Virus record (IMG/VR): IMGVR_UViG_3300042866_002182
Location: 1 to 27,063 of that record
Reading direction: 5' to 3' (one strand)
From: a virus
DNA: 27,063 nt
The translations under genes and the position numbers were made by a program. The notes under the pieces were generated by a model, which saw only the letters and a program-made list of their open reading frames with translations, was not told the DNA's origin and did not search any database. Of this stretch, positions 4,525 through 25,623 are shown one piece after another (within the stretch, counting starts at the first letter, position 1; each line of letters starts with the position of its first letter).

Positions 4525-6252
4525 TTATTTTTTACCCTTGACCTTGTTTTCCATCTCTGATATTATAGAGTCTATTTCCTTACCGGAAATTCCACTTGTG
4601 GATTCGGTCTCATTTGCCTCTTCCTCAGGGAGTTCCCCCGGTTCGGATTCCCCTGGTTCTTCAGCCAATGCAGAGTCTAACTCGGATAGTAAGGAGTCTA
4701 ACTCTTTGTTGGCTTTGCTATTTTTCTTTTTTGGTTGCTTTTCTACAGGGGGTTGCTTTGTTGGAGTTTCTTCATTCGGAGTCGTCTCATCCGGGGTTTC
4801 TTCACCCTGAATTCCCCCATCCGGGGCCTCTTCATCTGGGGTCACATCACCCATGGTCACCTCATCCCGGGCCACATCATCCGGGGCCATCTCAGTGGTA
4901 GATCCAGGGGGCCCTTCAGCATCGCCACCCGAACCATCTTCTGGACCGAAAATCGACTCATATAGGTTCTTATCCTTTTCAGGGTCAAACGTAGTTTCTC
5001 CTTCGCTACCTTGTTGGCCTTCAGCAGATTTGGCCTCATCTTCTAGATCAACTCTAAAGTGCCTCTCAATCCATTCTCTACGGGGTTTGAAACCATTTTG
5101 AATCAATAGGGAAACATCAGCGGGTGTCAGTTGGGACTCCTCAATTCTGAACTCCCTAGTTAAGGTCGGAGATGCAACATCAGCACCGAAATTTAAATCT
5201 ACAATCCACCTTACCAAAGTTTGAGTTAGTTGATGACAGATCATTTCTGATATCTCAGATGCCCTCACCACTCGAACTACGTTAGCAACCATCGACGAAG
5301 CCCTGGAACCAGACTCAGCCTGCCCAGCTTCATTTTCACCGCAAATCAGAAGGCTAATGACTTTATCCAGGTAGTCAATCAAGCCTTTAAACACATCGGG
5401 GCTACCTTCAGGGTTAATAAAATCCAATACGAACCCTTCAGGTAAAACCATCGCGGTCTCTTGGGATAAATTTGAGATCATCCCATAAATATTATCGATT
5501 TCGGCTGTTGATGCACTTAGGGGGGCAGTTGCTACGGTAGTCGGGGTTGCATATCTGTCACCATAAAGGACATAAGACTCTAATGCCCTCTTCCTAAACT
5601 TCACCAGGGGGTATAAAATACGACCAATCGAAGAACCATAGGGATCCCCATTATGCTGAGTCCAGTACCTATTGATGATGAATTTACGCGCAGGTAGCTC
5701 GATACCTTCAAACATCCTGTTGAATGTCAAGCAACGCATTGTAAAACCTGTTTGAGAATCCTCAGCTTCTTGGAAGACAAATCGGCGCTGGTCTCTAACT
5801 CGAACATCAAATGGGATGACACCCCGCTTGGTTTTCTTCCACATTACTTCCGCAACACTGAAACCAACAATTAAGGCTTCGGCTAAGCCTTTGAAAATAT
5901 CGTCTATTGGCAACTCCTCTAAAACTTCTGCTACAAAGTCCCTGACGGCTAAATCCCCAGGTTTATCGCTGTATTCCTGAACATACCATGGCCTAGACGT
6001 AACTTCCTGGAGCAACTTAGAGTAAGAACCCTGGACTTGTTCATCCAATAGCAACCTTTGGTAAGTTGATAATGCGCGATTACCTCCCTTTTGGATTAGT
6101 AGGTCGTCATTAGGGCGAACAATGCTGGAACCAGTCCCCGTAAAAGGAGAGCTAGAACCAAACATGTAAATGGAACTAAGCGCATACGGGTTACTGATGT
6201 ACGAGCTTATTTCACCGGTTGGGACAGGCGATGTCTTAAATCTTTTGGCCAT
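4525..6252 (-). CDS. Portal protein, DUF935 (Mu gp29-like) family
   Basis: This 575-aa protein forms the dodecameric portal at the capsid vertex through which DNA is packaged. DUF935 features are visible in order: WYVQEYSDKPGDLAVRDFV near residue 90, a DIFKGLAEALIVGFSVAEVMW segment with the typical Gly-Phe-Ser, RRFVFQ, KFIINRYW, a GDPYGSSIGR loop, and a VVRVVRASEISEMICHQL helix leading to WIVDLNFG. The last 150 residues are an acidic, Pro/Thr/Glu-rich tail with imperfect TPDE/APDD repeats, ending in a helix. That tail is not part of the core family and looks disordered. The gene starts at ATG 6252, 76 nt after the gp25-like gene. Confidence 0.88.
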   Translation of the reverse strand: MAKRFKTSPVPTGEISSYISNPYALSSIYMFGSSSPFTGTGSSIVRPNDDLLIQKGGNRALSTYQRLLLDEQVQGSYSKLLQEVTSRPWYVQEYSDKPGDLAVRDFVAEVLEELPIDDIFKGLAEALIVGFSVAEVMWKKTKRGVIPFDVRVRDQRRFVFQEAEDSQTGFTMRCLTFNRMFEGIELPARKFIINRYWTQHNGDPYGSSIGRILYPLVKFRKRALESYVLYGDRYATPTTVATAPLSASTAEIDNIYGMISNLSQETAMVLPEGFVLDFINPEGSPDVFKGLIDYLDKVISLLICGENEAGQAESGSRASSMVANVVRVVRASEISEMICHQLTQTLVRWIVDLNFGADVASPTLTREFRIEESQLTPADVSLLIQNGFKPRREWIERHFRVDLEDEAKSAEGQQGSEGETTFDPEKDKNLYESIFGPEDGSGGDAEGPPGSTTEMAPDDVARDEVTMGDVTPDEEAPDGGIQGEETPDETTPNEETPTKQPPVEKQPKKKNSKANKELDSLLSELDSALAEEPGESEPGELPEEEANETESTSGISGKEIDSIISEMENKVKGKK

Positions 6253-7002: not shown

Positions 7003-10000
7003 TTAACCTAAGCCCCTTGATTGAAGTTCATTGCTCATTTGACCAATGGAAACTCTAATCAATCCAACATCGATTCTTTCCATTGTTGGGACAGGGACAT
7101 CATAGACTTGGACATTGACGATTCCGTTTTCCAAATCTTCGACCCTGTTGATCCTTTCGTCGCAGATGACTTGGAAAGCATCAGAAGGCTTAGCACCATA
7201 AAGAGCACCTTCGTTGTAAAGTTGACCCATGACGCTGTTGCCTATAGTGACAATCTGGTTGAAGATAACTCCAAAGCCATCAATTACCGAGAAGATCTGA
7301 TTATCAAATACCCTACGGAGCGAACCATAAACAACGTTTTGGATGACGCGGGTGTTGACAAATTGGAACTTACGTTGTTCGGGGATAGCAGGGTTGATCC
7401 TAGTTCTTCCGCCCCAGATAAAGATCGCAGAAGAAGCATAGCCAGGTAGGGTCCTAGCAACGTTGCAGCCTCTGGGATTCAACAAGTTCTGTTGAGCAGA
7501 GTTGACAGAAAGTTGAACGCTAACGGCATCGACAAGTTGATATTTAGTGCCAGCTGGAGGGAATTGGAACCCTTCTGAACGATAACGTCTTAGCGCAACA
7601 CCAGCCACATACGGGGAGAGAGGAATGTACTGACCCGCTGAATTAAGGATGTGTGGGCCATAGTAGGCAATAAATCCAAAAGCGTTAAAGTAGCGTTGGC
7701 TATCCTCTAGCAAGCGTGCTACATTATCGACACCAGCCTCTACGAATACGGCCTCTGGAACTCCCGAGTTCCCTACCCCACGTAAAGCATCATCGATAAT
7801 CTCAGTGGATGTAATGGCATCAAAGTTCCACAAATTGGTTAATGGTGTTTGCTCTTCGGTTAATACAAGTTCGACTTGTGAGCCATAGCAAACATGACCA
7901 ACGGAGGTTAAATCACCGCCAAGGGAATCGGCAGGGATAACCGCCCACTCATAATTAGAGCCGTTGAAGACCACAGCAATACGATCACCAACAACTACTG
8001 GGGTTGTCCCATCAGGAGCCAAACCAGCGGCAGTAATCACGTCGAAGTAAACACCTGAGAGGTTAGTAATTCTACCTTGGATGTCCCCTTTACCAGACCC
8101 ATTCAGCAGACCAACGGCGAGAGTGTAGGGTTTGGCACCTAATAGGATACCTGGGCCTGCGGTTATGGTGCCAACAGTAACTGTGAACAAGGTTCCGGAA
8201 CCGATTACAGCAGTAGAGGCAGAAAGCAAACTTCCGGCTGTGTGCCCAAAACCAGTGGCCTTCAGAGTCACAACGGTAACAATCCCACCAGCGACAGTGA
8301 TATCAGCCGTAGCCCCACTACCACTGCCACCTGTGAGGGGGACATTTGTGTAGATGCCATTGGTGTACCCTGTACCCCCGGTAATGGCGCCAAGAGTAGC
8401 GATAGGCCCCCTGGTAGCTGTTCCGGTTGGATTGTAGGAGCCACCATTAATAGCATCGATAGCTGGAACTAAGTATGCCTGCGATGTGAAATTTTGAGTT
8501 GTAGTCGGGGCGCAAATATAGTTTTGAGTTGTAGTCTGAATATCACCCGGGTCAACCAAGTCCAAAGAAGGTAGCCAACCGGCAGAGGTGGTTTCACCGT
8601 ACGGGAAAATTAACTCTTTGCCAAGAACCTTAGAACTTCTGTTCAGGTAGATGGATACGGTGGGGTTGTCTATATTTGGTACCGGTGCTACAGATGCTCT
8701 AGCGGCCTGGCTTGCGACAATACCGCTGTTTAGACCATATTTCCTGGCTCTAATGAGTGGAATAGTGGTTAATTCAGCCAGGTTAACCGACGTCAGATTG
8801 CCACCCAATACACCCGAGTATAAAATAGTCGGTGCTGTGGAAATCGATGCAGATGGATAAATAACATAAGAACCAGACAGGTACCCCGTATAGCTGGTAG
8901 CTAGTAGGATAGTGTCATTATCCAGAACTTTGACGTAGTAGGGATTAATGGAGTTAGAGGTCGTTGCCTTTAGTAAGGTTGCAGCCCCCGCCAAAACAGT
9001 CTGAGTAAAGAAGACCTTTTGGCCATTGACTAATCCGTGTCCTTTCAGTTCAAAAGCCGCATATCCCACAGAACCACCAGGGAATGTGTAGGAACTAATA
9101 CTGGCAGAAGGGTTTAAAAGGGTTCTTGAAATAAAATTCAGCCTGTAATCCCTAGTGGAAGCCTGTAAGGTCGCAGGTAGGTGCAGGGTGTTGACGTATG
9201 TAGTCTCACCTGTGGTGTTCTGAAGGAGGTTAGAGGGTTGTCCGCTGATTTCAACGGGCCAATTCCAACTAGAAACCCCATAGGTAACAATAGCTGTAGA
9301 TCCAGTGGGAGTGCCAACCACATAAGCACCGTTCGCTGCAGCAACACCGGACCCAATAAGAGCAGTTCCACCAGCAGCTAGGACTGCAGTCAGTACAGAA
9401 GTAGCCTCTGAAGCTGTGGCAGTAATGTAGACGTATTGTGTGTTACCATCTGATGGGTAGGTGCCATACAGATTTGTATTATATGGTGGTGCTACGATGT
9501 AAACAGTCGCCGAAGTTTCACCTACACCGAACAACCCAGCAAAATCTGCACCGGCATTACTGATGGTAACTTCTTGAATGTCATATTTGACGGGCCAAAC
9601 TGCGCCATCAATGTAGAATACGCCATCATCAGATTGACCGACTACAGATTCTACTGTAAAGACGGCAGGGTCTAGAAGACCAACCTTTTCACCAGCGGTT
9701 ACTGATTCTGTAGATTGTTCTACGGCTACTTGAGGGTCATAGCCCGAAATCAAAGATTGATATGGCAAACGTCTGTAAGTAACGTCATTGCCGGTCCATT
9801 CATAGATGGTATTATCAACCAAATACTTCAAACCCATTACCAAATCTTCGGCCGGCTGGTGTGGGATATAGTTTTTATACTTATTGATATCTGTAACTAA
9901 GAACGAGCCACTATCTGCCAAAGCCAGCCACTTAAAGTTACCATCTTCGCAATGGGCCGCAGCAGCAGCTCCCACGGCAGTTCTACCTGCAGCATCAAAC

Positions 10001-10905
10001 TGCGCATATGCAGTGGGCGATAGCAGATACCCCTGGTCTTGTTGTCCGTCAAATGCAGTTCTGATGCACTGAACATAGTCTTGAGGGACCCTTTCCAGGC
10101 TAGTCGGGGCACAATCAATAGTTCCGACCACATAGCAATCGGTCATTAAGATTTTAGCAGCGCCTACAATGAATTGTTCAGGTACTACTTGGATAGTCCC
10201 GTCAAAAGTTGTAGCTGCCAGGACTGCAAATCCGCTTTCTGAATTTGTCTCAGGGCAAAGGGTATTTACTAGGCCCGACTCCCTAACATAGACGGAGCTG
10301 CTAATGCTAGGATTAGACTCAATTGCAGCAGCAAATGCGTTGACGATCGCAGATGAAATCTTACGGTTATTTACTTCGTCCCCAACGATATAACCAACGG
10401 GGATAGTAACAGGGACACCGAGCCACTCGCCATCGGCAGTATAACCAGTGGAGCCATCTCCAGCCACTAACTTTTGGCCATTAAGGATCATTTGGATATA
10501 CACCTGGTCACCAGCTTCGAGCTGGGAGGGTAATCCAGTGGAATTGATTTTGGTGCCAGAAGGTAGAAACTCAATTTCAGCAATCTGGGTTGGTGTTCCT
10601 ACTCTGACAACACGAACGTCCCCAACTTGTTGGGCATTTAGGAAAAGTTCATTTACACAATTATAGCTAAGAAGGGGGATTTTTTCGGTGGGTACTCCGC
10701 CTACTAGGGCCCTATAGTCATTTAAAGAAGTGATGACGACCGGGGTGTTAAACGGAAAGCGACTTACTGGGACAGAGTCCTCAGCCTCCACCAACATATA
10801 GGCAGTGTTAAATGTTGCGATTGGCGCGGCTGTAATATTGCCAGCGACTTCGTTTATGAATGTACCAGGGGCCCCAGGGGTGGTGCCAAAAGAGAAAGTT
10901 GCCAT
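7003..10905 (-). CDS. Contractile tail sheath protein with very large insertion
   Basis: This 1300-aa protein forms the contractile sheath around the tail tube. Residues 1-105 match the sheath N-terminus (GTFINEVAGNITAAPIATFN, then VVRVG). The C-terminal 270 residues match the conserved core: ARLLEDSQRYFNAFGFIAYYG, IPLSPYVAGVALRRYRSEG, FPPAG, LNPRGCNVARTL, a FIWGGRTRIN motif and the VIQNVVYGSLRRVFDNQ segment. Phage sheaths are usually 400-700 aa; the extra length is a Gly/Ser/Thr-rich middle part. Residues about 835-915 hold a TGGTGYTNG / LTGGSGSGATADITVAGG module resembling surface repeats of cyanophage virion proteins. This part probably projects outward. ATG start at 10905. Confidence 0.88.
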   Translation of the reverse strand: MATFSFGTTPGAPGTFINEVAGNITAAPIATFNTAYMLVEAEDSVPVSRFPFNTPVVITSLNDYRALVGGVPTEKIPLLSYNCVNELFLNAQQVGDVRVVRVGTPTQIAEIEFLPSGTKINSTGLPSQLEAGDQVYIQMILNGQKLVAGDGSTGYTADGEWLGVPVTIPVGYIVGDEVNNRKISSAIVNAFAAAIESNPSISSSVYVRESGLVNTLCPETNSESGFAVLAATTFDGTIQVVPEQFIVGAAKILMTDCYVVGTIDCAPTSLERVPQDYVQCIRTAFDGQQDQGYLLSPTAYAQFDAAGRTAVGAAAAAHCEDGNFKWLALADSGSFLVTDINKYKNYIPHQPAEDLVMGLKYLVDNTIYEWTGNDVTYRRLPYQSLISGYDPQVAVEQSTESVTAGEKVGLLDPAVFTVESVVGQSDDGVFYIDGAVWPVKYDIQEVTISNAGADFAGLFGVGETSATVYIVAPPYNTNLYGTYPSDGNTQYVYITATASEATSVLTAVLAAGGTALIGSGVAAANGAYVVGTPTGSTAIVTYGVSSWNWPVEISGQPSNLLQNTTGETTYVNTLHLPATLQASTRDYRLNFISRTLLNPSASISSYTFPGGSVGYAAFELKGHGLVNGQKVFFTQTVLAGAATLLKATTSNSINPYYVKVLDNDTILLATSYTGYLSGSYVIYPSASISTAPTILYSGVLGGNLTSVNLAELTTIPLIRARKYGLNSGIVASQAARASVAPVPNIDNPTVSIYLNRSSKVLGKELIFPYGETTSAGWLPSLDLVDPGDIQTTTQNYICAPTTTQNFTSQAYLVPAIDAINGGSYNPTGTATRGPIATLGAITGGTGYTNGIYTNVPLTGGSGSGATADITVAGGIVTVVTLKATGFGHTAGSLLSASTAVIGSGTLFTVTVGTITAGPGILLGAKPYTLAVGLLNGSGKGDIQGRITNLSGVYFDVITAAGLAPDGTTPVVVGDRIAVVFNGSNYEWAVIPADSLGGDLTSVGHVCYGSQVELVLTEEQTPLTNLWNFDAITSTEIIDDALRGVGNSGVPEAVFVEAGVDNVARLLEDSQRYFNAFGFIAYYGPHILNSAGQYIPLSPYVAGVALRRYRSEGFQFPPAGTKYQLVDAVSVQLSVNSAQQNLLNPRGCNVARTLPGYASSAIFIWGGRTRINPAIPEQRKFQFVNTRVIQNVVYGSLRRVFDNQIFSVIDGFGVIFNQIVTIGNSVMGQLYNEGALYGAKPSDAFQVICDERINRVEDLENGIVNVQVYDVPVPTMERIDVGLIRVSIGQMSNELQSRGLG

Positions 10906-13553: not shown

Positions 13554-16499
13554 CTAAATGAGTCCTTTCTGGATTGAGTCATACCGGAAAGTTAGCTTAC
13601 TGACAGCACCCAATTCAAATAGTTGAGTCATTGAGTATTCAACCCCAGGTGGTTCATCACCCCCAGACTGATTGGATGGAGTTACCGTATTCTCTTTTGG
13701 GGACTTCCGGAGCCTATCATCAATGGCAACCGAGGAGAAAAACGCACGGCTCAATGGTAATTCGGGTATTTCCATCGCGTAGTGGAATAAACACCAAGTG
13801 AAAAGGTGGGCAATCTGGAATAACACGGCAAACTGCTCTGCGTATTTTTCCGGTGTCATAAAATGCAGTTCATCATGGATGCTAATTATGAATCGGTAGG
13901 GGATCTTAAACTCTTCGGCCAGCCATGCCACGGCAGTTAAGGTGATAGACAGGATTTCGGACCCTGAAGCTTGAATTGCCCAGTTGGTCCTCCCCGTCTT
14001 AAAATCATTGCCGACTGCAGATGGCATCATGGCCGTTGAGATTTTTGTCCCCAAACACGGCAACCGGGGGGTCCCTGGCCCCATGGAAATTCTTTCCATC
14101 ATATTGAAAGCACCTGAGTCTGATCCACCTTCGTATTTGCCGAACCTTAAGACCCCCTTCTTAGACGCAATAGCTTTAAGGGCAAAAGTTTTGACCGCAT
14201 CTTCGTCTTTATCGGGGAAGGTCATTCGGATTGGGTTACTAAGGGCTCTGACGCTCCCGCCATACAAGGTAGCAAATCCTACAATCTTGGCCAGGTCTCT
14301 AGCTATTTTAAGCATAGTGTCTTTTTCCTTATCAATTGGAGACACCCAGTAGCCATCACGGGAGCGGCAATCATCGCTGTCTTCAGGTTTTTGCTCATAT
14401 TTATAGCAAATCCCCAGGGTCTTATCCCAAATTAGACCATCATACAATTCCGGGAAGATCGCTCGGGCCAATGCAGTGTGAGGATCAGTACCATTCTCTT
14501 TAGAACCAGAAAGCACGTTATACCCCATGGGCGAACACCCAATGAAACCGCCTTCCCATTTATCACTATAGATAGACGCAATCTGCATCTCTTGGCCGTC
14601 ATAGTCCGCACTAATGATTTTCCACCCCTCCGGGGCCTGTACACGGGTCTTAAGCTCGGTTCCGATGCGCCAGCTCTTGGTAGAGCACATGGTGGCCATA
14701 AGGCTCTCTACGACCCTACGGGTGACGGTTCCGTGGCAGACGATCTCTGGCAGGGTAACGAGGTTAGGTTTTCCCAGGGGGTTGGTGGCCCCCATGACAA
14801 TACGGCTTTTAACTCGGCTGCGAACTGATGTCCAAAAACTAATGGCATTAGCAATTTCCAGTGCCCTTTTTGCCTCGGGTAAGTCACTACTTAGTCTTCC
14901 AACTTCCATGTGAGTAACGAACTCTTTAGAGAATAGGCCGCCTACGTTTTCGCCGGGTTTCTTAGGGTGTGGGATTCTATCCAGGGTGCCGTCTCCCGTA
15001 GTAAAACACCAACCTTGTCCATCTTCCCATATGATGGGGGTGCCTTCCCATTTTAGTTTCAATAGGAAATGCGATAGTTTGCTTTTAACACCAATCTCCT
15101 TATCAGGGTCCTTCTTATAGGGCCTCATCCAAGTGGGGACCCATGCGTAGACACCCTTGATAGACTTCACTTCCCAATCTAATTGGCGAATCCACGGGTC
15201 TTTTGACACCCATTTACTTGCCTCTTTGACCCCAATTTCCTTTGTTTCGTGGCTATCTACTATTTCCTTCCATGAATTGAAAGTATCCCATAGCAAAGTT
15301 TTACAAAGACCGGTCATTTCCTGGTTATGGCTGTTATAGACTTCTTCAGCCCCTTGCACCCATTCAAACCAGTTGTCCACTAGCGGCACCACAGACCCAT
15401 TCAGGTGGTAATGCCCGCAAAGCCCCACCATTGATGGTGTACTATCAAGGTATTTTGGCCATAGTGCCTGGAATAACTCTGAAGTATAATAAGCGTCCTT
15501 AATGGCGTAATCAACTGTCTCGGCTAGTACCTTATTGATTTCGGAAAGCGTATCAGCGGTGACAAAAATGTTCCTAATTTCCTTGTCGGAATCTGATAGT
15601 GGCTTTACATCGCCATCGTCAAAGAAAAATTCTTTTGCCCGTTGAACATGGAAGTTGTATGTTTTAACTAGGGAGTTTGTGCTCCCCCTGTCAAGCCATT
15701 CCGGAGAATACTTAAGTTTCCGCTTCTCATCATCATCAAGCAAATCAAAGTCCTTTTCAGCCAGCGCATAAAGCCACCTCTGACCTGATGCTAAGCCTGA
15801 TACGCCAACGTGCGCTGACAGGGTGTCAAAGTAGAAATTTTCCGGTTTGGTAAAATCTAGCGAATAACCCTCTTGGGCCCTCACACGGTCATAGGATATA
15901 TTGTGGCCAATGACAAGCCTGTCAGTCCCAATTGGAATAAGTTTAAATTGATCCCAATCATTTTGGGGAATATCAAGGTCAATCAGCTCGGCGGCTAACC
16001 AAATATAGGCGGCCCTATCACTTAGAGCAGTTCCAATAATGGGAAAGGCCCCACCTTTAACGAAAGTTTCCGTGTCGAATGTAAATACTTCTTCCTCGGG
16101 GTAGGGTACTTTTCTAGTTTGCCATTGCTTGTTGGGGCCATCCCCGATAAGCTCATACCGTGTCCACCCCGGTTGAAATACTAAATCGTTGATTGACGGG
16201 ATCTTTGGTAGGGCACATTTGGCAAATTTATTGCCTAGTTCCTTATAGCGTCCAACTTGATTTTCTGCAATCTTTTCAAAGTGGTCGCGGATATTGTTAG
16301 CCTTTAGGTTAGGCAGGGGGACTGGCCCATCATAGATGCTTTCGGGATAATCAACGGGGGCCTCAATCCCAAATTTCCTCAAAAGGGAAACGGCCTGGTC
16401 CTTTTGCTTGCTATTCATTTCGGGCCTATAGTCAGATCCAAAAATCTTTAGGTGCAAGTCATCGGACAAGACCGGGTAGCCAAGGGCAGTAGTTTTCAT
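13554..16499 (-). CDS. Family A DNA polymerase resembling mitochondrial DNA polymerase gamma
   Basis: This 981-aa protein is the likely replicative polymerase with 3'-5' exonuclease. Exo I is FDTET (D142, E144), Exo II GHNISYD (D204) and Exo III YAIKDAYYT (D335). Polymerase motif A is ISADYDGQE (D632), preceded by ELKTRVQAPEGW. Motif B is RDLAKIVGFATLYG (R734, K738, F742, Y746) and motif C is HDE (875-877). Beyond the shared motifs, whole stretches parallel POLG: GTVTRRVVE (GTITRRAVE in human), the RVGSELK equivalent, and a tail with LPLSRAFFSSVAIDDRLRK then TPSNQSG. The 350-500 region matches the POLG palm-exo linker only in part. POLG Tyr951 is Phe742 here. No primase or helicase gene is seen in the window. 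It follows a short repeat-bearing gap; no Shine-Dalgarno is evident. Confidence 0.93.
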   Translation of the reverse strand: MKTTALGYPVLSDDLHLKIFGSDYRPEMNSKQKDQAVSLLRKFGIEAPVDYPESIYDGPVPLPNLKANNIRDHFEKIAENQVGRYKELGNKFAKCALPKIPSINDLVFQPGWTRYELIGDGPNKQWQTRKVPYPEEEVFTFDTETFVKGGAFPIIGTALSDRAAYIWLAAELIDLDIPQNDWDQFKLIPIGTDRLVIGHNISYDRVRAQEGYSLDFTKPENFYFDTLSAHVGVSGLASGQRWLYALAEKDFDLLDDDEKRKLKYSPEWLDRGSTNSLVKTYNFHVQRAKEFFFDDGDVKPLSDSDKEIRNIFVTADTLSEINKVLAETVDYAIKDAYYTSELFQALWPKYLDSTPSMVGLCGHYHLNGSVVPLVDNWFEWVQGAEEVYNSHNQEMTGLCKTLLWDTFNSWKEIVDSHETKEIGVKEASKWVSKDPWIRQLDWEVKSIKGVYAWVPTWMRPYKKDPDKEIGVKSKLSHFLLKLKWEGTPIIWEDGQGWCFTTGDGTLDRIPHPKKPGENVGGLFSKEFVTHMEVGRLSSDLPEAKRALEIANAISFWTSVRSRVKSRIVMGATNPLGKPNLVTLPEIVCHGTVTRRVVESLMATMCSTKSWRIGTELKTRVQAPEGWKIISADYDGQEMQIASIYSDKWEGGFIGCSPMGYNVLSGSKENGTDPHTALARAIFPELYDGLIWDKTLGICYKYEQKPEDSDDCRSRDGYWVSPIDKEKDTMLKIARDLAKIVGFATLYGGSVRALSNPIRMTFPDKDEDAVKTFALKAIASKKGVLRFGKYEGGSDSGAFNMMERISMGPGTPRLPCLGTKISTAMMPSAVGNDFKTGRTNWAIQASGSEILSITLTAVAWLAEEFKIPYRFIISIHDELHFMTPEKYAEQFAVLFQIAHLFTWCLFHYAMEIPELPLSRAFFSSVAIDDRLRKSPKENTVTPSNQSGGDEPPGVEYSMTQLFELGAVSKLTFRYDSIQKGLI

Positions 16500-18417: not shown

Positions 18418-19476
18418 TCACTCTGGGTTTTCTCTAACTTGTTGGATTCTTTGCTGGGCGATGTCGAGGTACGATTCCTCCATTTCAATGCCAATAAAGT
18501 TGAATCCCTCCAGTAGGGAAGCCTTTCCAGTTGTTCCAGAGCCTAAGAATGGGTCAAGTACGGTACCACCGGGCGGCGTAATTAAGCGGCACAAGTAACG
18601 CATTAAATTTGTTGGTTTGACTGTGGGGTGATTGTTGGTTTCACCATTGAGACCTTCGTTTCTGTCTTTTTTATTAGCTTTGGCGCAGTAGAAGAACCGG
18701 GCGGCGCTGCCCCCGTTGTCGTCGTGGCCACGCACTGTGGATTCACCACCGTACACGCCATAGGCGTTTGATTTGCCCTTGCCCGTGCCACGATGAGCAG
18801 CTTTAGCCGGACCCGTCTGTGGAAACAACCCCACCACCTCGTCGCTGCCATCCGTGATCAGGTTAGCGGGCCATCTACCGGTGAGCCCATCGCCGGTCCT
18901 GGTTCCGCGTTCCATGCCATAGCTGCCATAAACCTTGTTCTCGCCGCCATAAGGGCGCCCAAGTCCGTCATTCGTCCCCACCCTGCACCCATCAATGTTG
19001 ATAGCCCCGGTGCCGTGCTCCAGCACGTTTGCGGCCACGGTGCCCTCTGAGATGGGCTTGCGGGCCATGGTGATCGGCTCTAGGGCGGGCTTTAAGGAGC
19101 CTCCCCAGCCATCACGCACAGTCTCACCGTTGCTGTCCTTGATGTAGCCCACCTTGTTGAATCCACTTCCGTAGACCCACGCAATCATATCACGAATCTC
19201 AAACCCCGCATCCTCAATCCGCACCGCCATCCGGTGCTGCGTGCGCGTGCCAGCAAATGACAGTAAATGGCCACCAGGCTTCAGCACCCGCAGGCACTCT
19301 TTCCAAATATCAACACTTGGCACATCATAGTCCCATTTTTTACCCATAAACGCCAGGCCATAGGGCGGATCAGTACAAATAGCATCGATACTATTGTCGG
19401 GCATTTCCTTTAATACATCAAGGCAATTGCCATGGTACAGTTGATAGCGGTCTTCGGAAACGTAAGGCTTAATCAT
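18418..19476 (-). CDS. Site-specific DNA methyltransferase, beta class (N6-A or N4-C)
   Basis: This 352-aa enzyme transfers a methyl group from S-adenosylmethionine to an exocyclic amine of a base. The catalytic motif IV DPPY is at residues 36-39 and the SAM-binding motif DPFLGSGTTG at about 308-317. The order IV before I defines the beta class, and DPPY fits N6-adenine or N4-cytosine. KPGGHLLSFAGTRTQHRM and a GSGFNK segment are typical of phage and prophage members. The central region (about 140-260) is Gly-rich and probably recognises the target. No restriction partner is nearby, so it is an orphan enzyme, perhaps protecting phage DNA. Codons in the middle look more GC-rich than the neighbours, hinting at recent transfer. 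It overlaps the topoisomerase gene by 4 nt. Confidence 0.9.
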   Translation of the reverse strand: MIKPYVSEDRYQLYHGNCLDVLKEMPDNSIDAICTDPPYGLAFMGKKWDYDVPSVDIWKECLRVLKPGGHLLSFAGTRTQHRMAVRIEDAGFEIRDMIAWVYGSGFNKVGYIKDSNGETVRDGWGGSLKPALEPITMARKPISEGTVAANVLEHGTGAINIDGCRVGTNDGLGRPYGGENKVYGSYGMERGTRTGDGLTGRWPANLITDGSDEVVGLFPQTGPAKAAHRGTGKGKSNAYGVYGGESTVRGHDDNGGSAARFFYCAKANKKDRNEGLNGETNNHPTVKPTNLMRYLCRLITPPGGTVLDPFLGSGTTGKASLLEGFNFIGIEMEESYLDIAQQRIQQVRENPE

Positions 19477-21533
19477 GGTAGTTTAATCTCATTTAGGTTT
19501 GCAATTTTAGCCCCTTTCGCACCGGGTTTCCCCAGCTTTACAGAAAGGTCAATTTTTGTTGGTTTTTTCTTTGTTGATACCCACTCGACGGTAAATGGTT
19601 TCTCCCCAAAATACATAAAGACGGCCCCTTCCGGCAACCATTGCTTGCCCGTGCTTGTGGTTCTACACAGGGTTTCACCATCCATGGCCATAGCCCTTAG
19701 TTGACCATCAACCATAAATACAGCCAGGTATTTGCGTCCCGAGACGTATGCTTCCGGTTTTGCAAGCACCACAGGTGAATACCCTGTGGAAATTACACCC
19801 TTAAACGAAGCAGGCACCTTCTTTAGCATTCCGTCCTCGCACACTAGGATTAGCTTGTCGGTAGACCCCATGGCCAGGCAACCCTTGGGCCCTTTAGACT
19901 GTTCAATCACACCTTTCTTCATGTCGATTTTTAAGAAACGTGGTTTTGCTATTGGGGTGGTGTCTGAGGGGGTAGTGGCCGGAGGGAGAGACCCTGCGTT
20001 GTCTACTTTGGACCGGACCCCTACGGCAACAGGAACATCAATCAAAGGGCTCCTGCGGGGGACCCCATATTGCTTGTTGATCCTAGCAAGTTCCTCCAAC
20101 ATGTATGACTTTCGGGCACTGACATTATTGGCTTTGTCCCCCACCAGGGACTCTAGCCTATTGATGTCAGCCAATAGCTCATTTTTCTCACAAGACATCA
20201 AATCAAAGTCTAGGCACGTTAATTGCCGCAACCTCATTTCTAAAATGGCATCAGCTTGTTGCTCGGTGAATTTAAGCGGTGCTGACATTAGGGACTGCTT
20301 GGCTTCAGATTTGCCATTTGCGGCACGAATGCGCTTAATGACTAGGTCCATACGGTCAATAGCCTTTAGGAGACCATCAACGATGTGTAATCTTTTGTTT
20401 TTTGCCTCCAGTTCATGTTCAAATTTAACATCAAGCCGATCCAATCTCCATTGGACCCATCGTTGGATGATTTGTACCGGTGATAACTCAACGGGCTTAA
20501 ACCCATCGATAACCAAGGTTTTAGCTGAGTATTTGCAATCAAGGTCTGTATATGTGTATAGCAACTGCTTTACCAAATTAATATCAGCACCAGGTTTGAG
20601 GACCACCACCAGCCTATCCCCACTAATATCACTTTCATCTGTGATTTCGGCGATCCCTTCAATACGTCCTTTTTCTAACTCACTCTTGATCTGCTCACCA
20701 AGTTTCTCTGGATTGGTGCCAGGTGGCAAACAAGTGAAAGTCAAGGTGGATCGATCCCTGGCTTTTCCGCCCCTTTTCTGAATACCAGTCTCAACACAAG
20801 CCACGCAGCGTATTCCCCCGATTCCAGTACGGGTATAAGCATCTAGTTGCTCGTCTTGGACGATTTGGGTGCCAGTTGGGAAATCGGGAATTAGAGATAG
20901 GCTGGCTTTTTTTATATTATCAAGGTGGGCCTTTTCGGTAGGGGCATCCTTGCAAATTAACTTAATGGCTTCTACGATGGAGCGTAGACTGTGGGGAGCC
21001 AAACGGGTAGCAAAACCCACGGCAATTCCTGAGTCACCGTTTAGCAAAACGGTTGGCAAAGAAGTATTAAACCTGATGGCCTCCCGCTTACTGCCATCAT
21101 AGTTTGATTTAGTTTCCCACACTTCCCGGTCTTGTAAAAGAAGTTCCACTGCGGAAATTCGTAGTCTATTTTCTAGGTACCTTTCTGCTGAGGGGGAGTC
21201 AACTGTGCTTCCAATATTTCCATGACAATCAATCCAAGGGACATTATTGTTCCAAGGAGTAGCCATGTTAATGAGGGCCCCGTATGCAGAGCCATGGGGA
21301 TGGTAATAGGCACTAGTTAGGCCCGTAGTTCGGGCACACTTTACATACGGTTTATTCGGAAGCAATCCCTCTTCAATCATTGTCTGAAGGATGCGTCTTT
21401 GAACTGGCTTTAGCCCATCGCAAATGTCCGGTATCGATCTCCCGATAAGCACGGCCATACTATAGCTCAAATAGTCTTCCTTGAGCTGATCGACGAGATT
21501 GACTTCTGTGATTTTTGGCCTAGTTTTAGTCAT
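19473..21533 (-). CDS. Type IIA DNA topoisomerase, subunit A
   Basis: This 686-aa protein is the DNA-cleaving subunit of a gyrase/topoisomerase IV-type enzyme. An N-terminal YLSYSMAVLIGRSIPD leads to GLKPVQRRIL, then YYHPHGSAYGAL, and the catalytic Tyr119 in SAERYLENRL with Arg118 before it. A VGFATRLAPHSLRSIVEAI segment follows, then a tower and coiled-coil region. The C-terminal part after residue 500 is short and holds only a few blade-like repeats (KKVPASFKGV, YLAVFMVDGQLRAMAM). No clear GyrA box (QRRGGKG) is seen there, so it may lack true supercoiling activity. The B subunit is not in the window. The gene overlaps the HNH-like gene by 8 nt and the methyltransferase by 4 nt. Confidence 0.92.
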   Translation of the reverse strand: MTKTRPKITEVNLVDQLKEDYLSYSMAVLIGRSIPDICDGLKPVQRRILQTMIEEGLLPNKPYVKCARTTGLTSAYYHPHGSAYGALINMATPWNNNVPWIDCHGNIGSTVDSPSAERYLENRLRISAVELLLQDREVWETKSNYDGSKREAIRFNTSLPTVLLNGDSGIAVGFATRLAPHSLRSIVEAIKLICKDAPTEKAHLDNIKKASLSLIPDFPTGTQIVQDEQLDAYTRTGIGGIRCVACVETGIQKRGGKARDRSTLTFTCLPPGTNPEKLGEQIKSELEKGRIEGIAEITDESDISGDRLVVVLKPGADINLVKQLLYTYTDLDCKYSAKTLVIDGFKPVELSPVQIIQRWVQWRLDRLDVKFEHELEAKNKRLHIVDGLLKAIDRMDLVIKRIRAANGKSEAKQSLMSAPLKFTEQQADAILEMRLRQLTCLDFDLMSCEKNELLADINRLESLVGDKANNVSARKSYMLEELARINKQYGVPRRSPLIDVPVAVGVRSKVDNAGSLPPATTPSDTTPIAKPRFLKIDMKKGVIEQSKGPKGCLAMGSTDKLILVCEDGMLKKVPASFKGVISTGYSPVVLAKPEAYVSGRKYLAVFMVDGQLRAMAMDGETLCRTTSTGKQWLPEGAVFMYFGEKPFTVEWVSTKKKPTKIDLSVKLGKPGAKGAKIANLNEIKLP

Positions 21534-22314
21534 TAGTAATTTCTTCCCTTAGCGAGGGATCAATGCCCCTAGCAGTTTGATATCGAGTGAGGCCGCCAGG
21601 TGTTGATATTTTTCCCGTTACTAAGCAGCGTACGCGCCTAGAATTAGTTTTTTTAGCCATATCGGAAAAATGCAGGGGATTCTTGGCCAATGTCACACGC
21701 GCTGATCGCCTAGCATGATTGCTAAAAAACTCAGGGTCTTTGCTTAGTTTAGTTTGATTAGCTTTTTCATATGCTTGTTTCCTCTTTTCTGGAGTCATGG
21801 CCTTTTTCATCGCCAAATACCTACTTTCTTTTTCTTCAGGGGATAACTTGGCCATCGCCGCTCGACCCCCTGCTTGTTTCTGCTCCCGGGTTTGACTAAG
21901 TGCCCCCTTTCTAGAAAACTCTGCTTTTTCTTCAGGGGATAACTTGGCCATCGCCGCTCGACCCCCTGCTTGTTTATGCTCCCGGGTTTCTTCTCTGGGG
22001 AGACCTTTCCATCTAATTATTCCGGGAATGGCTTTAACCCCCATCCACTTTCGCCAAAGAGATAAAATCTCCGCCTCAAGGTAAGATTTCTCCCAGCCCC
22101 AAATACAAGGGTGGTTACACTCCTCTGACTGCAAAACACCTTGAATAGCGTGGTGCTCTTTGAGCAGAAGAACGGTATTACTTCCCCCTAGGCATTTTGG
22201 GACAGGGTAATGACAAGACTCCCAATCCCCGTGGCAAGGATTACCAGGTTCCAGCCGGTTGTCAAAGTAATAGTCTTCGCACCACCTTACAAATTGCTCC
22301 TGAGTCGGCATCAT
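21526..22314 (-). CDS. HNH-like putative homing endonuclease with internal repeats
   Basis: I chose ATG 22314, preferring it to the TTG at 22329. The 262-aa product has an N-terminal part with Cys/His positions fitting an HNH-type nuclease (NPCHGDWESCHYPVPKCLGG, then LKEHHAIQG and CNHPCIW). The middle carries two copies of an HKQAGGRAAMAKLSPEEK repeat of the NUMOD/helical DNA-contact kind. The C-terminus has RCLVTGKISTPGGLTRYQ, reminiscent of end domains in cyanobacterial and phage endonucleases. It sits between kinase and topoisomerase genes, overlapping the latter by 8 nt. Free-standing homing endonucleases often sit like this and spread into intron-less relatives. Catalytic residues are not proven. 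Confidence 0.6.
   Translation of the reverse strand: MMPTQEQFVRWCEDYYFDNRLEPGNPCHGDWESCHYPVPKCLGGSNTVLLLKEHHAIQGVLQSEECNHPCIWGWEKSYLEAEILSLWRKWMGVKAIPGIIRWKGLPREETREHKQAGGRAAMAKLSPEEKAEFSRKGALSQTREQKQAGGRAAMAKLSPEEKESRYLAMKKAMTPEKRKQAYEKANQTKLSKDPEFFSNHARRSARVTLAKNPLHFSDMAKKTNSRRVRCLVTGKISTPGGLTRYQTARGIDPSLREEITND
21828..21989 (-). repeat. 66-bp direct repeat inside the HNH-like gene
   Basis: Positions 21828-21893 and 21924-21989 are identical except one base (C at 21880, A at 21976), at 96-bp spacing. They encode the two AGGRAAMAKLSPEEK peptide copies. Near-perfect DNA identity shows a recent duplication or conversion, unlike older diverged protein repeats. Confidence 0.9.
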
Positions 22315-22325
22315 TTTAGCATTAG

Positions 22326-22886
22326 TCAAGGTAAAAAATCCAGATAGTCAAGGATCGTTTCCTTGGCTTCCGATGCTTTTACCCGAACAGGAGTAAAACT
22401 TTTGCCGTACTCAGTTGAAAACGAATTAAGATACTCCTCAAGGTGCCCATCCAAACGTAAAGCGTCTTCTTCAGATTCATATCTGCCTTGGGGGTCATAC
22501 GGGAAATCCCTACTAAGAAGAAAATTCAAATGCACCACACCGTCATTAGTAGAGTGGTTTACAAACCCCTTGGCCGCCTCATCGACGTAACTGGATATCA
22601 CACCGTGATAATAGGTGGCATAAAACCCGGCAAGCAATACCGGGGAGTCAGTGACAATGTACCTCACGGTGCCATACAGGAAAGACTCATAATGGGATTG
22701 TTTACCTAGTAGGTACAATTGGTCGTACTTCCCGATTTTCCTCTTTGTGTAAGCCCAGTGTTTGACATATTCGCGAACAAGTTCTGCGCTTTCGCCTTGT
22801 TTCTTGAGTTCGCTGTAAATGTCGGGCGCAGCAGTGGATTTACCCGTACCTGGGCCACCAAATAGATTAATTACGGTAGTTTGCAT
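22326..22886 (-). CDS. P-loop kinase-like ATPase (AAA_28/NadR-like)
   Basis: Starting at ATG 22886 (preferred over a TTG 30 nt upstream), the 186-aa protein shows a Walker A GGPGTGKST at residues 10-18. It also has a VREYVKHWAYTKRK segment and a Walker-B-like IVTDSPVLL near residue 90. A basic lid-like region (LLSRDFPYDPQGRYESEE) and LDGHLEEYL follow. This is the arrangement of AAA_28/NadR-type kinase-like proteins, frequent in phages, that phosphorylate nucleosides or nicotinamide riboside. The substrate cannot be told from sequence. A sigma70-like promoter lies directly upstream. Confidence 0.75.
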   Translation of the reverse strand: MQTTVINLFGGPGTGKSTAAPDIYSELKKQGESAELVREYVKHWAYTKRKIGKYDQLYLLGKQSHYESFLYGTVRYIVTDSPVLLAGFYATYYHGVISSYVDEAAKGFVNHSTNDGVVHLNFLLSRDFPYDPQGRYESEEDALRLDGHLEEYLNSFSTEYGKSFTPVRVKASEAKETILDYLDFLP

Positions 22887-22924
22887 GGCGAATGTGGTTT
22901 GTGAAGATGGTGTCAATCATGGAT

Positions 22925-24510: not shown

Positions 24511-25623
24511 TTACCCCAAGACGTTCAAATCGGGATACAAACTCAAAAGCTCCTCCTTCGAAAGAACATCATACTCATCTTCCGGTTGCCAGATAATCTC
24601 AAGGGCGACTAGGTCATCAGGTGTGATAGATCCTAGGGCTACCAGATTTGACTTTAGGCCCTCATGTGAGTCAGATGGCCTTAGGTTAAGATCCCCGTTC
24701 GTAACTACCAGGACATTCACAAGGATGTATTCGTTGTCTTGGGTTTTTTCGTGAGCCTTTTCCTTACTCTTTGAGAGACGACCGTCAACGTTCGTCAAAG
24801 TTTCTTCCGACGCTCGGGAACGCTCTTCCATGGAGAACTGGTTAAAGAGATCTTCCGCATTGTCAATGGACTCCCTGTTCTTATCACTCCAAGCGTAGAT
24901 GACCTTATCAGGGTGCCGGAGAAGAGCAAGGGTTGTTTCTTGTAGGATCTTGGCAAGGCCGTATGAACTGTCGGTATCTCCTTGTTCGGCCATCCGAATT
25001 AGGTCAGATTGAATGTCTTTGGCTGACGCAAGTAGGGCCACTCGTTGACGCACTACTGTGAGTTTCTTATACTTTTCCTTTTGGGTGCTTAACCACGGGC
25101 CTACAAAGTCTTCCCACCCTCCGCACAAAAGAATGCCTGCAATAATTACCACACCCATTGAAGCAAGCAGAGTCAAAAGAACCACCGGATTGGCAGGTTG
25201 TTGACTGACTGTGGTCACCCGCGAAGGCAAGGAGTATGGGATAGCCGGTGCAACATTTGGAGTCAAGTCAGGCATGACGATGATGTTAGTGCTCGAATGA
25301 CTTGGGGGGTTGTAAGAGGGTCTGGGGACAGGTGAAGGAGTGTATGTTCTCGGTGCAGAGTAACTATGGCTGGGACGGCTGATACTTGGGGAGCTGGGGC
25401 GACTATAGCTAGGGGAAGGGCTACGACGGCTGTAGCTCGGGGTGCTAGGACGACTATAGCTCGGCCTACTATAGCTCGGGGAGCTTGAGCGGCTGCGAAA
25501 GCTACTACCGCCGATGCGACCAGCAGATGCAGCAAAAGCGGGGGACGCCGTCAATAGCATCGCAACCGTGAGCGTCAGAATTATTGTCTTGAGTGATTTG
25601 GTGTTCATGGGTTTCATTTTCAT
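24511..25623 (-). CDS. DUF1517 membrane protein (cyanobacterial/chloroplast family)
   Basis: This 370-aa protein has a signal peptide with cleavage likely after AFA (residue 31). A Ser/Pro/Tyr/Arg-rich region with SYSRPS repeats follows (about 36-115), with one membrane helix near 146-168 (VVLLTLLASMGVVIIAGILL). The C-terminal domain matches DUF1517 strongly: ALLASAKDIQSDLIRMAE, ETTLALLRHPDKVIYAW, MEERSRASEETLTNV, EYILVNVLVVTNGDL, LVALEIIWQPEDEYDVLS and a terminal YPDLNVLG. The family is found in cyanobacteria and plastids and has no settled function. A full-length copy in a phage is most simply a host-acquired gene. It follows a second small membrane protein. Start ATG 25623; two more in-frame ATGs lie within 18 nt. 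Confidence 0.88.
   Translation of the reverse strand: MKMKPMNTKSLKTIILTLTVAMLLTASPAFAASAGRIGGSSFRSRSSSPSYSRPSYSRPSTPSYSRRSPSPSYSRPSSPSISRPSHSYSAPRTYTPSPVPRPSYNPPSHSSTNIIVMPDLTPNVAPAIPYSLPSRVTTVSQQPANPVVLLTLLASMGVVIIAGILLCGGWEDFVGPWLSTQKEKYKKLTVVRQRVALLASAKDIQSDLIRMAEQGDTDSSYGLAKILQETTLALLRHPDKVIYAWSDKNRESIDNAEDLFNQFSMEERSRASEETLTNVDGRLSKSKEKAHEKTQDNEYILVNVLVVTNGDLNLRPSDSHEGLKSNLVALGSITPDDLVALEIIWQPEDEYDVLSKEELLSLYPDLNVLG

Follow-up and report, generated by a model that had tools for sequence, protein, structure and literature searches.

An S-CBWM1-like cyanophage fragment carrying a DNA polymerase of the mitochondrial polymerase gamma family

Does the polymerase gene at positions 13554-16499 of virus record IMGVR_UViG_3300042866_002182 belong to the family of the mitochondrial DNA polymerase gamma (POLG; Mip1 in yeast), and in which direction did such genes pass between phages and mitochondria? 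The record is a fragment of 27,063 bases, analyzed over its whole length and referred to here as the window. The initial annotation, which gave no strand, had described the gene as a 981-aa phage polymerase sharing common descent with POLG. The open reading frame (ORF) is real and lies on the minus strand: 13554-16499 (-) holds an open frame of 981 codons from ATG to stop with no internal stop codon, and the opposite (plus) strand was stop-rich in the frame translated.

The protein was compared with all sequences of the Protein Data Bank (PDB) using phmmer. Yeast Mip1 was matched at an E value of 4.7e-98 and mouse POLG at 2e-96. Up to an E value of 1, 14 of the 16 matches were Pol gamma chains (4.7e-98 to 3.6e-92), the remaining two (0.64 and 0.68) were unrelated proteins, and no T7 or Pol I polymerase was matched. 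The last 321 residues alone matched mouse POLG at 7e-36 and yeast Mip1 at 6e-31, and the best family A polymerase outside the gamma group was a Pol I at 0.31. All of the peptides quoted in the initial annotation were found, and all align with mammalian POLG: GTVTRRVVE with GTITRRAVE, ELKTRVQAPEGW with ELKAMVQAPPGY, ISADYDGQE with VGADVDSQE, and, in a POLG-type C-terminal tail (residues 919-943, 13671-13745 (-)), AFFSSVAIDDRLRK with AFFSAVDIDQCLRK and TPSN with TPSN. The tail appears in both the full-length and the C-terminal phmmer alignments, and the tail match claimed earlier was upheld by the two C-terminal E values.

The domain composition of the protein was also analyzed. A mitochondrial-type 3'-5' exonuclease domain (residues 61-350, 15450-16319 (-)), the exonuclease domain expected of the Pol gamma family, was recognized by Pfam PF18136 DNApol_Exo at 2e-61 (208 bits against a cut-off of 26.7) and contains Exo I (D142 and E144), Exo II (D204), and Exo III (D335). 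The polymerase domain (about residues 584-934, 13698-14750 (-)) was placed by Pfam DNA_pol_A (1.9e-10, best stretch 836-894) and by the POLG alignments. Within it, motif A, ADYDGQE (residues 631-637, 14589-14609 (-), catalytic D632), aligns with ADVDSQE of POLG; motif B, RDLAKIVGFATLYG (residues 734-747, 14259-14300 (-)), has F742 at the place of a mitochondrial Tyr; and motif C consists of H875-D876 (13872-13877 (-)). In an alignment of 108 rows (102 distinct ORFs and six added rows), the exonuclease residues D142, E144, D204, and D335 and the polymerase residues D632, E637, R734, K738, H875, and D876 were invariant. Y746 was kept in 107 of the 108 rows, and the sole Phe at this position belonged, by the motif table, to locus L222 (L numbers denote loci of this study). 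As judged by alignment, all tested catalytic residues of both domains are present in the window protein.

The fold was examined with an AlphaFold2 model computed from 33 sequences (the window protein and 32 IMG/VR phage rows), which had a mean predicted local distance difference test score of 88.4 and a predicted template modelling score of 0.87. Among the best 50 entries listed by Foldseek, ranks 1-36 were all Pol gamma chains, and Pol gamma entries were likewise the top 35 among the best 50 rows listed by VIA-align. The best Pol gamma entry was aligned over 838 residues with a Z score of 45.2 and a root-mean-square deviation (rmsd) of 2.5 Å, and yeast Mip1 gave Z 30.5 to 30.7. The match to T7 DNA polymerase was far weaker (Z 17.8, 523 residues aligned, rmsd 5.7 Å). 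The comparison of a model with POLG that had been proposed earlier thus places the protein with Pol gamma. Homology to mouse and human POLG and to yeast Mip1 extends over the whole chain, with 23-34% identity in the structure alignments, and the fold and the C-terminal tail are common to these enzymes and the window enzyme.

A rooted tree was then considered, with 18 rows and seven outgroup rows (T7, E. coli Pol I, and five other phage polymerases) over 488 columns. The POLG family, including the window protein, formed one clade with support 100/100 against the seven outgroup rows. The initial annotation had named a position inside the T7 or Pol I clades as the result that would speak against it; such placements were rejected, with approximately unbiased test values (p-AU) of 5.8e-61 for a clade with T7-type enzymes and 1.9e-6 for a clade with E. 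coli Pol I. Motifs A, B, and C are also found in T7 and Pol I, as would be expected if the window enzyme were an ordinary phage polymerase of either type whose resemblance to POLG stopped at these family A motifs; the full-length and C-terminal searches, the rejected trees, and the far weaker fold match leave this explanation practically no room. The window protein is a true member of the POLG/Mip1 family over its full length, and common descent with POLG, as first claimed, is borne out by the full-length match, the tail, the fold, and the tree, which rule out motif convergence.

The family itself is not new in phages. The initial annotation had presented the polymerase as unusual, on the ground that most family A polymerases known from phages resemble T7 or Pol I, a view that overlooks the cyanophage POLG published in 2011 and several times later (A-HIS1/2, S-TIM5, S-CBWM1, Mic1). 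A tblastn search of 50,697 phage records gave 11 matches, all of them cyanophages, with identities of 55% for Synechococcus phage S-CBWM1 (gp77, MG450654; over 100% of the protein), 36% for S-TIM5 and its kin, 31% for A-HIS1/2, and 30% for Mic1; five of these 11 records are annotated 'DNA polymerase gamma' or 'polg'. In PMC7156551, which reviews cyanophage POLG, the first report is credited to Chan et al. 2011, a common ancestor of the cyanophage and mitochondrial genes is proposed from an unrooted neighbour-joining tree, and the origin of the mitochondrial replicase is called unclear. In PMC4928673, which has Chan et al. in its reference list, cyanophage POLG is cited in favor of the mitochondrial DNA polymerase having come from a phage. 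The window polymerase is therefore a new example within a well-populated clade known since 2011.

We analyzed where the mitochondrial enzymes join the phage lineages. After partial ORFs were dropped, 151 full-length ORFs were reduced to 52 representatives under 88% identity, 31 of which were used together with S-TIM5, Mic1, L205, L207, L132, yeast Mip1, and mammalian POLG in an unrooted tree of 38 rows and 873 columns. The mitochondrial enzymes grouped with the Mic1-type phages (support 99/89), L132 and L227 formed a separate group, and A-HIS, L222, and the S-TIM5-type and S-CBWM1-type enzymes lay beyond a branch of support 100/98. The window protein fell inside the S-CBWM1 clade, as it did in the rooted tree. 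A clade of mitochondria with the window protein and S-CBWM1 was rejected in the 38-row tree (p-AU 0.0002), and grouping mitochondria with L132/L227 instead of Mic1 was not rejected (p-AU 0.060). The POLG of Microcystis phage Mic1 and its IMG/VR relatives (L140, L205, and L207) has about 30% identity to the window protein and is much closer to mitochondrial POLG: L140 scored 619 bits to Mip1 and 568 bits to mouse POLG, and L174, a near copy (98.6%) of the window protein, scored 381 and 374 bits. The close kinship to POLG claimed for the window protein thus stands as family membership, but not as the closest phage relationship, which belongs to the Mic1-type phages.

The rooted tree also grouped mitochondria with the Mic1-type phages (98/95), and a clade containing all phages without mitochondria was rejected (p 0.020). 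The pairing was recovered in three variants: polymerase domain only (91/81; phage-only clade p 0.047), without L222 (94/86; p 0.028), and without L222 and four outgroups (92/86; p 0.098). The mitochondrial enzymes therefore joined the Mic1-type phages in all five trees, and the mitochondrial gene lay inside phage diversity in all four rooted ones, although support for the pairing fell short of the secure-branch threshold in three of those four and the branching order among the deep phage lineages is not settled. Because mitochondrial POLG lies inside phage diversity and the phage-only clade was rejected at p < 0.05 in three of the four rooted analyses, transfer from phage to mitochondrion appears moderately favored, as read from two incomplete eukaryotic sequences. 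Two points count against this direction: the phage-only clade was not rejected in the last variant, and the two eukaryotic rows were each pieced together from printed alignment blocks and are incomplete, and both have long branches and a residue composition that differs from that of the other rows. The earlier suggestion that the mitochondrial replication enzyme came from phages is thus favored by the rooted trees, but only moderately. More specifically, we consider the odds about even that animal and fungal mitochondrial POLG arose within cyanophages from the Mic1-type branch, which infects freshwater cyanobacteria, with L132/L227 as the next branch. The ancestor common to mitochondrial POLG and the window enzyme would most likely have been a phage gene, and the window would stand on a side branch and not on the branch adjoining mitochondria.

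The opposite direction, in which POLG passed from early eukaryotes into cyanophages and gave rise there to the phage lineages, could draw on the rooting, which depends on a long branch to the T7 and Pol I outgroup, on the unrejected analysis above, and on the absence of POLG from bacteria reported in PMC7156551. It appears unlikely, since mitochondrial POLG stands beside the Mic1-type enzymes inside the phage spread in every rooted tree (a pairing secure in one), several deep phage lineages (S-CBWM1, S-TIM5, A-HIS, L132/L227, and, in the trees that contain it, L222) fall outside this pair, and the phage-only clade was rejected in the other three analyses.

Independent descent of the phage and mitochondrial enzymes from an unsampled bacterial or plasmid polymerase is a similarly improbable explanation. 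In a non-exhaustive scan of 84,980 prokaryote genomes (GTDB) with two short peptide patterns, 265 pattern matches contained one relative, L096 (CALGUV010000157.1), a POLG fragment on a contig binned as an actinobacterial metagenome-assembled genome (MAG). The flanks of L096 match the phage contig L186, and L096 is probably phage sequence that was misbinned. This result speaks against such a source, but the two patterns could miss divergent bacterial copies, plasmids were outside the scan, and eukaryotes are represented by two rows. If animal and fungal POLG arose from the Mic1-type branch, the donor may have lacked an accompanying Twinkle-type helicase, because the Pfam domain DnaB_C (Twinkle family) was found in none of 12 records of these phages, most of them fragments, when all 14 controls were matched (10 over the cut-off). 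Pfam RNA_pol (T7-type RNA polymerase) matched none of 11 records and none of its controls.

The window enzyme differs from mitochondrial POLG in motif B, in its spacer, and in its phage gene context. F742 stands at the position of Y951 of human POLG, the residue that governs selection of dideoxynucleotides (ddNTPs) in that enzyme. Phe replaced the mitochondrial Tyr in 71 of 71 rows that best match the S-CBWM1 lineage, and Tyr was found in the S-TIM5-type (26 of 26), Mic1-type, L132, L227, and mitochondrial rows. The same Phe/Tyr pattern is stated for phage isolates in PMC7156551. The spacer between two well-aligned blocks was 59 residues in the window protein (449-507) and 250 residues in mouse POLG (461-710), a difference of about 190 residues, although the gap is placed by a weak middle block (3.2 bits) that would divide the difference into two insertions. 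In mammalian POLG this region is the binding site of the accessory subunit (POLG2), and the 59 residues would offer little space for an insertion such as the one that binds POLG2 in the animal holoenzyme. Because the spacer is shorter where the accessory subunit binds, the window enzyme is predicted to work probably as a single subunit, and because motif B has Phe in place of Tyr, it probably discriminates against ddNTPs. Both POLG-type domains, exonuclease and polymerase, lie on a single chain encoded in a phage gene neighbourhood, and the enzyme would be a one-subunit replicase with ddNTP discrimination that copies phage DNA in a cyanobacterial cell and proofreads the product itself.

The gene neighbourhood was examined as well. 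Named neighbours, all of phage type, were a Mu-like portal protein (4525-6252 (-); Pfam Portal_Mu 3.5e-66), a tail sheath protein (7003-10905 (-); phrog_17610 4.2e-43, Pfam sheath match below the cut-off), a neck protein, an N6/N4 DNA methyltransferase (18418-19476 (-); Pfam 1.2e-34), the A subunit of a type II topoisomerase (gyrase/topo IV; 19473-21533 (-); Pfam DNA_topoisoIV 5.7e-96, 51% to S-CBWM1 gp73), and a P-loop nucleoside-kinase-like protein of the PHROGs thymidylate kinase family (22326-22916 (-); AAA_28 1.4e-10, phrog_2107 5.7e-11). The tail sheath gene implies a contractile-tailed phage. Nine window ORFs match the 31-kb S-CBWM1 stretch compared, with order kept (gyrase A, gp75/gp76-like genes, neck protein); gyrase A, POLG, and the neck protein are 51%, 55%, and 35% identical, and Phe in motif B is common to both phages. 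The methyltransferase gene had no match in that stretch. The window comes from an S-CBWM1-like cyanophage and covers part of its genome.

A DUF1517 protein of 370 aa (24511-25623 (-), 8.6e-56) was found in the window and four large relatives and was not found in six of 11 records searched, S-CBWM1 among them; in 14 control genomes, matches were obtained in Synechococcus elongatus, Thermus, and Deinobacterium. This gene was possibly taken from a cyanobacterial host. A photosystem reaction-centre gene (Photo_RC) was present in eight of 18 chosen related records. Because of the synteny with S-CBWM1, Photo_RC in relatives, and DUF1517, the host is most likely a cyanobacterium. As predicted from sequence, this Pol gamma family gene very probably encodes the replicative DNA polymerase of an S-CBWM1-like cyanophage with a contractile tail. 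Some weight must be given to the other side: the host is assigned through kin, the closest long relative (279 kb) was without a Photo_RC gene, and no primase, helicase, or single-stranded DNA-binding protein was identified among the proteins scanned in this 27-kb fragment.

Over the 14,943 bases compared, the window and a 103,308-base IMG/VR contig are 99.993% identical; the two largest blocks matched between the window and a 279,339-base contig have 91.6% and 94.8% identity. S-CBWM1 has 139 kb, whereas near relatives of the window lie on contigs of up to 279 kb. The contigs of L005 (279,339 bp), L073 (277,244 bp), and L074 (201,260 bp) are of jumbo-phage size, up to twice that of S-CBWM1, and their polymerases are 98% and 68% identical to that of the window. 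A 66-nt direct repeat (98% identical) was seen at 21828-21893 and 21924-21989, inside a 267-aa ORF.

The spread of the family was investigated with a 126-base signature of conserved POLG residues at fixed spacing, which matched 92 of 105 loci on the plus strand and missed 13. At least 119 stretches were matched in IMG/VR. All 116 loci newly drawn from the signature, several from contigs already sampled, had a POLG-like ORF by BLAST. A stricter, mitochondria-like signature gave 11 stretches in the whole IMG/VR collection, and of two further IMG/VR scans the A2-based one gave four relatives and the A3-based one none.

Several neighbouring lineages were seen. The S-TIM5 and Acaryochloris phage A-HIS1/A-HIS2 enzymes have the same domain order as the window enzyme and form clades separate from it. 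In the Mic1-type gene, motif A is often interrupted directly behind ADVDS, as in L017, L205, L207, and L224, whereas L140 and L226 have it uninterrupted; the split is probably a mobile intron with empty sites in near relatives. S-CBWM1-type and S-TIM5-type genes were broken into two or three frames in L195, L196, and L138, probably by introns or inteins. L132, on a 46-kb contig, has an intein in motif B; in the same record, L239:9449-12727 encodes a 1092-aa POLG whose motif B is interrupted by the intein, and the intein part had Campylobacter and Escherichia-type phages, beyond cyanophages, among the matches listed. L132 and L227 look like cyanophages, because a Leptolyngbya phage is the best match both for the portal of the L132 contig (33%) and for a tail/lysis gene on the L227 contig (29%). 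L222:2252-4900 is a deep lineage with an altered Exo II (NFNTLFDA) and a motif B ending in LFFGG; one protein of its contig matched no phage by tblastn, and a primase of phrog_25243 occurs on both the L132 and L222 contigs.

The window adds one member to its clade, along with a difference that can be tested, the Phe that replaces Tyr in motif B. The wider scan weighs more: POLG is common in public viral contigs, some lineages (L222, L132/L227) are distinct from those to which the 11 isolate records belong, and one, the Mic1-type, adjoins the mitochondrial enzyme. The family is of interest mainly for the question of where the mitochondrial replicase came from, to which lineages and a rooted tree, not proof, have been added here. 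If animal and fungal POLG did arise within the Mic1-type branch, the donor of the mitochondrial replicase could be named to a phage clade.

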